Part shown: piece after piece, positions 1-59,843 of the stretch | How positions within the stretch are numbered: position 1 is the first letter of the stretch | Layout: every line of letters begins with the position of its first letter | Assembly (NCBI GenBank): GCA_027859205.1 | Contig: JAQIBH010000016.1 | Location: 1-59,843 of the forward strand | DNA from: Bacteroidales bacterium | GTDB lineage: Bacteria; Bacteroidota; Bacteroidia; Bacteroidales; UBA12077 | Reading direction: 5' to 3' | DNA length: 59,843 nucleotides | Program-made: the position numbers and the translations under genes | The notes under the pieces: generated by a model | The model's input: the letters and a program-made list of their open reading frames with translations, nothing else | What the model was told of the DNA's origin: nothing | The model's database searches: none

Positions 1-293
1 AGAAAAAATAATTTTTGAGAAAAACTTATTTTCTGGATAATCTTTGTTTTAACATGAAAACACTGGGATACAGCTATGTTTTCACTAATTATTCAAAAAC
101 TTTCGGATGCTAGTGATAAGTGTTTATGCTGTTGATGTTTCTAAACATATATTTTTGAAATTGGAGTGAGGGTCTTTTTTTTGAATAAATAAATTCTTAA
201 ACTTGCTAATATTAACTATGGAAAAACAACACAATAAAACTACTTTTACTTTTACGATATTAGTTAATTTTCGAGTAATGCAAGAAAGAATTT
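1..293. other. Non-coding left edge
   Basis: No reading frame of any length enters from the left edge: all three plus-strand frames meet stops within the first 40 bases. The stretch is AT-rich and holds one 19-bp sequence that recurs near the right edge. A T-run at about 175-182 has no convincing GC stem before it, so I do not call a terminator. The promoter of the downstream nuclease gene presumably lies here, but I see no clear -33/-7 pair. Confidence 0.6.
99..117 (+). repeat. 19-bp dispersed repeat, copy 1
   Basis: The sequence ACTTTCGGATGCTAGTGAT occurs here and, exactly reverse-complemented, at 59724-59742. Both copies are intergenic and lie upstream of a plus-strand gene. Its base composition is much richer in G+C than the surrounding DNA, which makes a chance 19-base match unlikely. 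Function unknown; it may be part of a larger dispersed element or a protein-binding site. Confidence 0.7.
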
Positions 294-794
294 ATGAGTA
301 GAATAAAGTTAAATGTATTGGGAATATCTTATAGTCAAACTCAGACTGGTGCGTATGCACTTGTACTAACGGAAGAAAAAGGTGAACGCCGAATCCCAAT
401 TATTATTGGAGGATTCGAAGCTCAGGCAATAGCTATTCAGCTTGAAGGTTTAAAGCCCCCAAGACCTCTTACACACGATTTATTTCTTAATTTCTCAATG
501 TCTTTTGGAATTAATTTGATTGAAGTAAATATATACAGATTAGAGGAAGGTGTATTTTATTCTAAATTAATATGTAATAATGGAGGTAAGGATATCACAA
601 TTGATGCACGAACTTCTGACGCAATTGCCTTGGCACTTAGGTTTAAATGCCCCATGTATACTACTGAAGAAATACTACAAAAGTCAGGAATTGTAATTGA
701 TATTCATGAAAAGGGGGATAAGAAATTTTCTAAATCTAAAACTATTGAAAGTGAAGATGAAAAAACTTTTCCAACAGCTGATATTAGTAAATAA
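294..794 (+). CDS. Bifunctional nuclease family protein (BFN, DUF151)
   Basis: This 166-residue protein matches the BFN/DUF151 family. Cues are the opening segment, the stretch RRIPIIIGGFEAQAIAIQLE near residues 33-52, and the pattern DARTSDAIALALRF near 104-117, all within one domain of about residues 5-135. Family members have been reported to have DNase and RNase activity; the role in Bacteroidota is unclear. Bacteroidota homologues usually run to about 200 residues and end in a UvrB/UvrC-type (UVR) helical hairpin. Here a TAA at 792-794 stops translation first, while the UVR-coding codons continue in the same frame to 905. The ATG at 294 begins the conserved domain directly. Downstream is a nucleoside transporter. 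Base use resembles the neighbours, so there is no sign of transfer. Confidence 0.85.
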   Translation: MSRIKLNVLGISYSQTQTGAYALVLTEEKGERRIPIIIGGFEAQAIAIQLEGLKPPRPLTHDLFLNFSMSFGINLIEVNIYRLEEGVFYSKLICNNGGKDITIDARTSDAIALALRFKCPMYTTEEILQKSGIVIDIHEKGDKKFSKSKTIESEDEKTFPTADISK

Positions 795-905
795 AAAAAA
801 TTAGATATTGATTCATTGGAGGAACTTCTGGCAGAAGCTGTAAAAAATGAAGAATACGAAAAAGCTTCAATGATTCGTGATGAAATAAGGAAAAGAAAAA
901 AATAA
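795..905 (+). other. Detached UVR-motif tail of the nuclease gene
   Basis: After the TAA at 792-794 the same frame stays open for 36 codons and ends at TAA 903-905. The translation contains LDIDSLEELLAEAVKNEEYE followed by KASMIRDEIRKRKK, a textbook UVR motif (LEELL.EAV..E.YE.A..IRDEI). Removing one stop codon would give a continuous protein of about 203 residues, the usual size for Bacteroidota members. The stop could be a true nonsense mutation, a sequencing error next to the A-run at 793-800, or a site of readthrough. No start codon with a ribosome site is apparent for separate translation. Confidence 0.6.
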
Positions 906-1031: not shown

Positions 1032-2537
1032 ATGAAAAAAATTATAGTTTATTCAAGTTTGTTTTTCCTACTTTTTATTACATCAACTTATTTTATTGCA
1101 AAAGCTAATGATGTTAATGTAACAAATGACACAATTATTGAAAATTATTCGATTGAAGATACATTAGTTGTAAGTTCTGAAAACGGAAATGGTTTAGTGG
1201 ATGGGAATAGTGTAGTTAATACTGCCCTGGGAGAAGGTTTAAGTTTTATAAATATTTTACGTGGATTGTTAGGAATGCTGGTTCTTATTGGTATTGCATA
1301 TGTTTTTAGTACTAACAGAAAGGCTATTTCGTGGAAAGTTGTTGGAATAGGATTACTTATTCAAATTTTATTAGCTATTGGGGTTCTACAAGTTCCATTT
1401 ATTCAGGCTTTCTTTGAGATTATAGGTAAGCTGTTTGTAAAAGTCTTGGATTTCACAAACGAAGGAACAAAATTTTTATTTAAATCATTTGCATCGGGTG
1501 AGATTGAATCACCATTATTAAATTTTGCGGTTACAATTTTGCCAACTATAATATTTTTCTCCGCATTAACAAGTGTGCTTTTTTATTTAGGAATAATCCA
1601 AAAAATTGTTTGGGGTTTGGCGTGGGCAATGACCAGATTGTTAAAATTATCGGGTGCTGAAAGTTTATCAGTAGCAGGTAATATATTTTTGGGACAAACA
1701 GAATCGCCTTTAATGATAAAAGAGTATCTCGACAAAATGAACCGTTCTGAGATTCTTTTAGTTATGGCTGGAGGAATGGCAACCTTGGCTGGAGGTGTGC
1801 TGGCGGTATATATAGCTTTTCTGTGTGGTGATGACCCGGTTCAACGTCTGATTTTTGCGAAACATCTTTTGGCGGCTTCAATAATGGCTGCACCCGGAGT
1901 AGTTGTTATTTCTAAAATAGTAATTCCTCAAACCGAAAAAATTAGCTCTGATATTGAAATATCGCAAGAGAAAATAGGAAAAAATGTTCTCGATGCAATT
2001 TCAAATGGTACTACGCAAGGATTAAAATTGGCTGTTAATGTAGCCTCTATGTTACTTGTGTTTATTGCATTTATTGCAATGTTTAATTATATATTTTTGA
2101 AAATAGGCGATTGGACATCCTTAAACGAAGTTATTGCCAGAGTAACTGATGGCCAGTTTAATGAATTATCATTACAATTTATATTAGGATATTTATTTGC
2201 TCCTTTAATGTGGTTGTTGGGTGTTGCTACCGAAGATATTACACTTGTTGGACGTATGTTAGGAGAGAAACTTATTATGACAGAGTTTATTGGTTATGTT
2301 AGTCTTGCTGAGTTAAAAGCTGCAGGATCATTTGTTTCGCAGAAATCTATTATTATGTCAACTTATATGCTTTGTGGTTTTGCCAATTTTGCTTCCATCG
2401 GAATCCAGATTGGTGGAATTGGTTCGTTGGCACCTGGAAAAAGAGTAATGTTATCGCAATTAGGATTAAGAGCTTTACTTGCCGGAACATTAGCTTCCTT
2501 AATGTCTGCTACAATTATTGGAATGATTATAGGTTAA
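1032..2537 (+). CDS. nupC: Concentrative nucleoside transporter (CNT/NupC family)
   Basis: This 501-residue inner-membrane protein should import nucleosides by H+ or Na+ symport. The first 25 residues form a hydrophobic signal-like helix, followed by a polar stretch to about residue 70. The CNT core covers about residues 75-500, with the gate region near 170-270 (GNIFLGQTESPLMIKEYL, then GGMATLAGGVLAVY) and the C-terminal transporter domain ending in repeated glycine-rich helices (LGVATEDITLVGRMLGEK). The N-terminal extension is longer than in E. coli NupC (400 residues), which is usual in Bacteroidota. The downstream cyclophilin starts 4 bases after the stop, so the two are probably co-transcribed. 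Substrate range cannot be read from the sequence. Confidence 0.9.
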   Translation: MKKIIVYSSLFFLLFITSTYFIAKANDVNVTNDTIIENYSIEDTLVVSSENGNGLVDGNSVVNTALGEGLSFINILRGLLGMLVLIGIAYVFSTNRKAISWKVVGIGLLIQILLAIGVLQVPFIQAFFEIIGKLFVKVLDFTNEGTKFLFKSFASGEIESPLLNFAVTILPTIIFFSALTSVLFYLGIIQKIVWGLAWAMTRLLKLSGAESLSVAGNIFLGQTESPLMIKEYLDKMNRSEILLVMAGGMATLAGGVLAVYIAFLCGDDPVQRLIFAKHLLAASIMAAPGVVVISKIVIPQTEKISSDIEISQEKIGKNVLDAISNGTTQGLKLAVNVASMLLVFIAFIAMFNYIFLKIGDWTSLNEVIARVTDGQFNELSLQFILGYLFAPLMWLLGVATEDITLVGRMLGEKLIMTEFIGYVSLAELKAAGSFVSQKSIIMSTYMLCGFANFASIGIQIGGIGSLAPGKRVMLSQLGLRALLAGTLASLMSATIIGMIIG

Positions 2538-4642: not shown

Positions 4643-5557
4643 TTAATGGTGTCCGAAATGCTCGTTTATTTTTTCTCCAGCGAGGATTTTTGCGGTTAAA
4701 AAATTTTCTCTTGGTGGCAAAGGGCAAGTTGCAAAATCTGTAAAAGCACAGGGAGGATTGGTTGCCTTATTAAAATCAATAAAAGTATTTCCGTTCTCAT
4801 CAGGTTTGTTAACCGATAAAAATCTGCCGGCACCATAGGTTTCTTCAGCGCTGGTTTCATCAGCAAATATTAAGAAAAAACTACTTGTTCCATCTCCTAA
4901 AGGCATTAAGGTGTATTTTTCTTCTCCAATTTTAAATTTTAAAAGTCCATAGCATTTTTCATATTTGGTATCACCTAAAACATTGGGTACAGCAATTTCC
5001 TTTGGAGTGTCAAATTTTTCGAATTTAGCTTTTACTCTCCATTTTGAATCAATTGGGAACGATGGTATTTCGGTTATTAGATTTATTAGTGGGCTCTCTA
5101 AATTTTTTAATCTTATTGCATATCGGTCGCCTCGTTTAATAATGTACCATCTAAAAGATCCCATCCTAAACTGAGTTGTATTATTATCAGCATCAGTATA
5201 AATATCATTTTCTTTAAGTAAGGAATCATTAATAAATACCTCAACATCATCATAAATAATTATACTAAGATTTCCTTTATAAAGAATAATAGTTCCAATA
5301 AATTCAGGAGTGTTTTCAGGGAAAATAATATTATTGGCTGTGTTGCTACCAAAGGGATTCTGACCGTCTTTTAGCCAATGTAAACCAACTAAATTTAGCC
5401 ATCCGTTTTCAGATTTCAAACCCTCCAGTCGCTTAACTTGCCATTCTTGAACAGACTTGATATAATCTTCTTCGTTGAACTTTTCGGTATTTGACTGGCA
5501 TGCAGTTAGATTTATAATTAATATAAATACGATTATCTTAGAAATAAATTTGTACAT
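4643..5557 (-). CDS. DUF1684 family lipoprotein
   Basis: This product of about 304 residues starts with a lipoprotein signal: a hydrophobic stretch ending in LTAC, with the Cys near residue 20 as lipidation site. It should be anchored to the inner or outer membrane facing the periplasm. The mature part matches DUF1684: the N-terminal EWQVKRLEGLKSENGWLNLVG and the C-terminal DFNKATNPPCAFTDFATCPL, with the final segment PPRENFLTAKILAGEK. DUF1684 has no established function. The ATG at 5557 is preferred to the TTG one codon earlier. It ends close to the dispersed repeat and appears to be transcribed on its own, 60 bases downstream of the cupin gene. Confidence 0.8.
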   Translation of the reverse strand: MYKFISKIIVFILIINLTACQSNTEKFNEEDYIKSVQEWQVKRLEGLKSENGWLNLVGLHWLKDGQNPFGSNTANNIIFPENTPEFIGTIILYKGNLSIIIYDDVEVFINDSLLKENDIYTDADNNTTQFRMGSFRWYIIKRGDRYAIRLKNLESPLINLITEIPSFPIDSKWRVKAKFEKFDTPKEIAVPNVLGDTKYEKCYGLLKFKIGEEKYTLMPLGDGTSSFFLIFADETSAEETYGAGRFLSVNKPDENGNTFIDFNKATNPPCAFTDFATCPLPPRENFLTAKILAGEKINEHFGHH

Positions 5558-6613: not shown

Positions 6614-6650
6614 AAAACCAGATAAGTTTAAGTACAACCTATCAGGTTTT
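6614..6650 (-). promoter_or_regulatory. Leader hairpin before cupin-YgbA-cupin
   Basis: AAAACCAGATA (6614-6624) and TATCAGGTTTT (6640-6650) pair at 10 of 11 positions around a 15-base loop. On the minus strand the hairpin is followed by T-rich sequence and then the cupin start at 6597. It may be a weak terminator after hcp, an attenuator, or an operator. Confidence 0.4.
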
Positions 6651-59723: not shown

Positions 59724-59742
59724 ATCACTAGCATCCGAAAGT
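59724..59742 (-). repeat. 19-bp dispersed repeat, copy 2
   Basis: This is the exact reverse complement of the sequence at 99-117. It lies 62 bases upstream of the partial gene at the right edge, in the region divergent from lysS. Confidence 0.7.
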
Positions 59743-59804
59743 CGGGATATTAAAAAGCCCTCAGAATCTTGTATTTTTGAGTTTGACAAAAAACTTTATA
59801 AAAT

Positions 59805-59843
59805 ATGGGACTCTTCAGGCGAAACAAAAATAACAATAAACCA
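59805..59843 (+). CDS. Partial gene cut by the right edge
   Basis: An ATG opens a frame reading MGLFRRNKNNNKP that runs off the window. Only 13 codons are visible, too few for identification. The basic, Asn-rich start gives no clue about localisation. The divergent position against lysS supports it as a real start. Confidence 0.4.
   Translation, partial: MGLFRRNKNNNKP

Follow-up and report, generated by a model that had tools for sequence, protein, structure and literature searches.

In a Bacteroidales genome, a gene for a protein with a bifunctional nuclease (BFN) domain and a C-terminal UVR motif is interrupted by an in-frame TAA codon between these two parts. We regard a very recent, single nonsense substitution in this lineage, which removed the UVR hairpin and left the BFN domain whole, as the probable explanation, with a confidence that goes somewhat beyond even. 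If the stop is real, the gene represents a natural UVR-less allele among examined relatives that all possess the UVR part, thus offering a handle for testing the function of the UVR tail. Otherwise, it shows that an in-frame stop seen in a single assembly should be compared with reads and related sequences before biological conclusions are drawn.

The window (i.e., the whole stretch of DNA that was analysed) is an entire contig (C116) of 59,843 bases. It belongs to an assembly of 3.6 Mb in 209 contigs with an estimated completeness of 95.5%, and its named relatives are, for the most part, Bacteroidales or Bacteroidetes MAGs. The gene is located near the beginning of the window, where the following features are distinguished.

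1 to 116, no strand assigned: end of an IS-like element with the terminal TTTCGGATGCTAGTGA at 101 to 116, the contig beginning within the element (from repeats at other contig ends)
117 to 293, forward strand: upstream region of the BFN gene, partly aligning with relatives (read by eye)
294 to 794, forward strand: BFN-domain open reading frame of 166 amino acids, from the ATG at 294 to the in-frame TAA (PF02577 above cut-off)
705 to 791, forward strand: fast-changing linker, residues 138 to 166 (from the mean dN to the other sequences and low pLDDT in the model of a relative, L032)
792 to 794, forward strand: TAA stop at the column where the genus and family relatives have a Tyr (16 of 20) or Phe (4 of 20) codon
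795 to 902, forward strand: UVR tail, in frame, 36 sense codons, beyond the protein encoded under table 11 (from PF02151 and constraint)
903 to 905, forward strand: second TAA closing the frame of the tail, likewise TAA in the nearest relatives

A single frame leads from the ATG at 294 through the TAA at 792–794 and the 36 following sense codons to the TAA at 903–905. The sequence-only reading, which had placed an in-frame TAA between the BFN domain and a UVR motif with no frameshift involved, is thus borne out. The first part matches the Pfam family BFN_dom (PF02577) over residues 23–135 with 135.4 bits against a cut-off of 27, and UVR (PF02151) is recognized in the 36 codons that follow the stop, with 31.2 bits (cut-off 21.5, E 1.7e-07). 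The UVR match shows that the frame of the tail is not open by chance, and a whole-genome search also recovered the UVR, at 807–893. Under table 11, no UVR motif is found inside the encoded protein, as the UVR codons all lie 3′ of the TAA at 792–794, which supports the earlier suggestion that the encoded nuclease has lost its UVR hairpin. No NCBIfam family is named for the frame at 294–794.

The extension was further compared with those of other genes in a sample of 279,587 bases of the genome (the window and 19 other contig pieces), which holds 173 gene-like open reading frames. At least 25 open codons follow the stop in 34 of these 173, and among the 34 extensions that of the BFN gene has the highest mean coding score (0.34 per codon). 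The genome yielded no further copy of the gene: the BFN match is single, and only the repeat at 1–126 recurs strongly. A plasmid search with the protein gave matches in 22 records, every one of them below 60% identity.

The stop is peculiar to this sequence among the relatives examined. Of 20 genomes of the genus, 18 (the source genome among them) gave a match to the gene; the remaining two have completeness values of 78% and 89%. We aligned the window with 20 relatives, namely genus members and three family members, giving 21 rows; identity to these genus and family orthologues is 78–88%. In all 20, the frame remains open where the window has its stop and goes on into the UVR tail. At the stop column, 16 have Tyr (TAT or TAC), four have Phe, and none has Lys. 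The three nearest relatives (L003, L004, and L006) read AAA TAT AAA AAA where the window reads AAA TAA AAA AAA, so the differing base is 794, the third of the Tyr codon, and not 792; it is this difference that gives rise to the run of eight A at 793–800. The proposal that a single-base change from AAA to TAA would suffice is therefore correct as to the one base, but AAA is rejected as the ancestral codon in view of the Tyr or Phe of the relatives.

A wider set of 132 loci (L003–L134) represents 125 distinct proteins, one of which (L019) is without its first 40 residues. A profile HMM of the UVR tail matches all 125, the profile having been built on genus tails that are themselves among the 125 and the loci being best matches rather than a random draw; none of the 125 has an in-frame stop at this point. 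An order-level search gave a match in 345 of 393 genomes, and among the 150 places listed the open frames are of at least 190 amino acids, except in the window (171) and in G201 (161). The latter was rejected as a second short case, as its contig ends 32 bases past the match. The sequence-only reading had named a clade whose members all end naturally at this point as the observation that would speak against it, and had proposed aligning close relatives; with the UVR tail in all 125 distinct relatives and the long frames listed, a clade-wide natural end at the stop is rejected. Because the stop occurs in no examined relative, it points to a very recent mutation or a sequence error, and not to a new mechanism.

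Apart from the stop, the gene is of an ordinary BFN–UVR type that is widespread in the Bacteroidales. Its orthologues in this order are the same gene with PF02577 and PF02151 and the same order of neighbours; they differ in having the UVR within the protein in all 125 distinct sequences, whereas in the window it lies behind the stop. The order BFN, nucleoside transporter, and cyclophilin is common to the window and relatives, extending to a saccharopine dehydrogenase in L137 and L139, where the piece is long enough. As a side observation, the nucleoside transporter of the window (1032–2537) has a Cys in AFLCGDDPV, where relatives have a Gly (AFLGGDDPV in L136 and L137, GFLGGDDPV in L139).

More distant proteins show the same parts in other combinations. 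TM0160 of Thermotoga maritima (164 residues in the chain of PDB 1SJ5 and 1VJL) has a BFN domain but no UVR tail, and the match ends near its C-terminus, so a BFN domain without UVR is a known form; TM0160 is, however, a distant relative in which the short form is normal and not the outcome of breakage. The plant BBD proteins (OmBBD, AtBBD1, and AtBBD2) and Arabidopsis UVR2–UVR4 share the DUF151/BFN plus UVR architecture, and, unlike the window gene, OmBBD, AtBBD1, and AtBBD2 carry an additional HCR domain (PMC7249048, PMC8889267).

The tail bears the marks of selection. The gene tree places the window sequence beside L003, L004, and L006 at a support of 94/90, below the tool's mark for firm support, and on a long terminal branch (0.38 changes per column). 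Synonymous sites in the BFN part are close to saturation against these three relatives. The pairwise dN/dS of the tail between the window and the same three is 0.08–0.15. Against L006, the tail shows 17 base differences, 10 of them at third positions, altering four amino acids; when 17 changes were placed at random, 12.5 codons (sd 1.5) were altered, and four or fewer in none of 20,000 trials. The low dN/dS and the four altered codons against 12.5 thus indicate a tail long under selection, that is, judging from these substitution patterns, for nearly all its history. With a tail so constrained, three readings are left: a stop of very recent origin, a spurious one, or one that translation sometimes ignores. 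One residue of the tail is unique to the window, the other 19 rows (with L019 left out) having between none and four. The linker changes fast (mean dN to the other sequences 0.96 versus 0.06 in the BFN part). Two residues of the BFN part are unique to the window (K3R and I121M), and this part gives no clear sign of relaxed constraint.

What the stop would do to the protein can be read from a structure model of L032, built with the 21-row alignment (mean pLDDT 76). Here, the BFN domain is folded up to about residue 133, residues 134–164 are disordered (pLDDT below 50), and the UVR forms two helices (172–184 and 188–202). In terms of this model, the stop (residue 167 of the window protein) falls at the border of linker and UVR, the hairpin being lost and the BFN domain untouched. 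For TM0160, an active site of Thr57, His58, and Asp115 has been proposed (as quoted in PMC7249048). Its Thr and His (in PLTHD) and Asp (in SDAI) correspond to T60, H61, and D109 of the window protein, and none of these three residues varies among the 21 aligned rows. In the PDB chain of TM0160, residue numbers are shifted by 12, presumably on account of a tag.

The mechanism that we favor would start from an ordinary, widespread Bacteroidales BFN–UVR gene in which one substitution at base 794 turned a Tyr codon into TAA, an event that would be very recent, at the species or strain level at most. Provided that base 794 is correct and the product is made, translation would stop at 794 and yield a protein of 166 residues with the complete BFN domain and the disordered linker but no helical UVR hairpin at its C-terminus. 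If the analogy to other UVR proteins applies, the truncation would cost the protein a handle for docking to partner proteins (UvrB/UvrC-like or ClpC-like) and not its catalysis. Candidates for such partners are encoded in the genome: a ClpC-like protein of 851 amino acids with Clp_N and UVR, and a UvrB-like protein, the UVR of which came up in the whole-genome UVR search. In Arabidopsis plastids, three DUF151–UVR proteins (UVR2–UVR4) are enriched with the chaperone CLPC1 (PMC8889267); by the same analogy, ClpC or UvrB may be the docking partner of the bacterial tail. As would be expected of a recently truncated allele, there is a sense codon in every close relative examined, a difference of one substitution, and a tail that has not yet decayed. 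Against the nonsense substitution, the BFN part shows no clear relaxation, and the near absence of decay in the tail is equally predicted by a sequence error.

Such an error is the most serious competitor, and we consider it a real but clearly less probable option: the consensus of the metagenome assembly would be wrong at base 794, or would combine different strains, and the living organism would have a complete BFN–UVR gene. The assembly is in 209 contigs, the question turns on one base within an A-rich stretch, the stop occurs in none of the 125 distinct relatives, and the tail has hardly decayed, all of which would fit. On the other hand, the contig break is accounted for by the repeated IS-like element, from which the stop lies some 675 bases away, and an error in homopolymer length cannot create the TAA at 792–794, for which a substitution is required. 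The same geometry disposes of the earlier idea that transcriptional slippage on the A-run at 793–800 might bypass the stop. T792 precedes the run and is always followed by at least two A, so TAA is kept at any run length and a changed length only shifts the UVR out of frame.

Broken genes elsewhere in the sample bear on the same question. Besides the BFN gene, four of the 34 extensions (in L149, L158, L144, and L157) were tested against Pfam, the other 29 being judged by eye. The one other clearly broken gene seen in the sample is a sodium:solute symporter gene (Pfam SSF) at 5340–6796 of L149 (contig C80), which is interrupted several times: positions 137–392 of the SSF profile lie in one frame, a frame change and stops come before that part, and a TGA at 6623–6625 is followed by 56 more open codons. 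Several lesions are what real decay would leave, and this gene counts in favor of a real mutation, although it has little bearing on errors of a single base. In L158, the extension belongs to an adjacent gene from a different family (TfoX_N, just below the cut-off, versus DUF2461 before the stop), and no Pfam matches were found for the extensions in L144 and L157.

It is far less probable, indeed hardly to be expected, that the stop is real and partly read through, giving mostly a UVR-less BFN protein and a little of the full BFN–UVR form, in which case termination efficiency would set docking via the UVR. In favor of this, the in-frame tail has no internal stop, resembles coding sequence, and is constrained, but with the stop in none of the 125 distinct relatives, the constraint is explained by the past, uninterrupted gene. 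TAA is, moreover, the commonest stop in the sample (133 of the 173 gene-like frames), and the base after the TAA at 792–794 is an A. No suppressor tRNA was detected, the anticodons TTA, CTA, and TCA being absent from the 37 tRNA matches in the genome, to each of which ARAGORN assigned an anticodon, and two open frames with release-factor domains are of release-factor size (344 and 363 amino acids), which we take from their lengths to be RF1 and RF2. Neither the relatives nor the tRNAs, release factors, or stop usage thus lend positive evidence to the two protein forms that the sequence-only reading had entertained, and on the last three grounds recoding of TAA in this genome is rejected as well. 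The RNA fold of 770–905 has a z of −1.16, with 27 of 200 shuffles as stable. A restart after the stop that gives a separate small UVR protein, for example from the one early in-frame TTG (816–818), is the least credible option, close to negligible, as the sole in-frame ATG of the tail (870–872) lies within the second UVR helix, too late for the motif, in-frame GTG codons are absent from the tail, and the UVR belongs to the BFN protein in all 125 distinct relatives.

Both ends of the window (1–116 and 59725–59843) are ends of an IS-like element with the terminal TTTCGGATGCTAGTGA. These 16 bp occur at 101–116 and, on the opposite strand, at 59725–59740, and nowhere else in the window with up to two mismatches. 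The first 115–126 bp of the window recur with 98–100% identity at the ends of contigs C38, C59, C69, and C170, and the ends of C140, C92, and C169 carry a relative of the element that is 73–74% alike. Contig C13 begins with a piece ending in the same 16 bases, followed by a gene for a SIS-domain protein; such a gene lies upstream of BFN in L136, L137, and L139. The flanks (101–125 of the window and 100–125 of L213) share seven bases, TAAGTGT, adjoining the element, as a target-site duplication would. From the SIS gene beside the element end on C13 and the shared TAAGTGT, it seems that the element was inserted between the SIS-domain and BFN genes. A loss of the upstream region through this element was considered and rejected, as the window retains (by eye) the AT-rich block ending in TTAAACTTGCT that is common to most genus members upstream of BFN; for this reason, we claim no loss of expression. 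We saw no evidence for a link between the element and the stop. Elsewhere in the genome, contigs C87 and C176 (L162–L165 and L170) both carry the tRNA set Thr(tgt)-Tyr(gta)-Gly(tcc), which reflects either a duplication or one place assembled in two versions.
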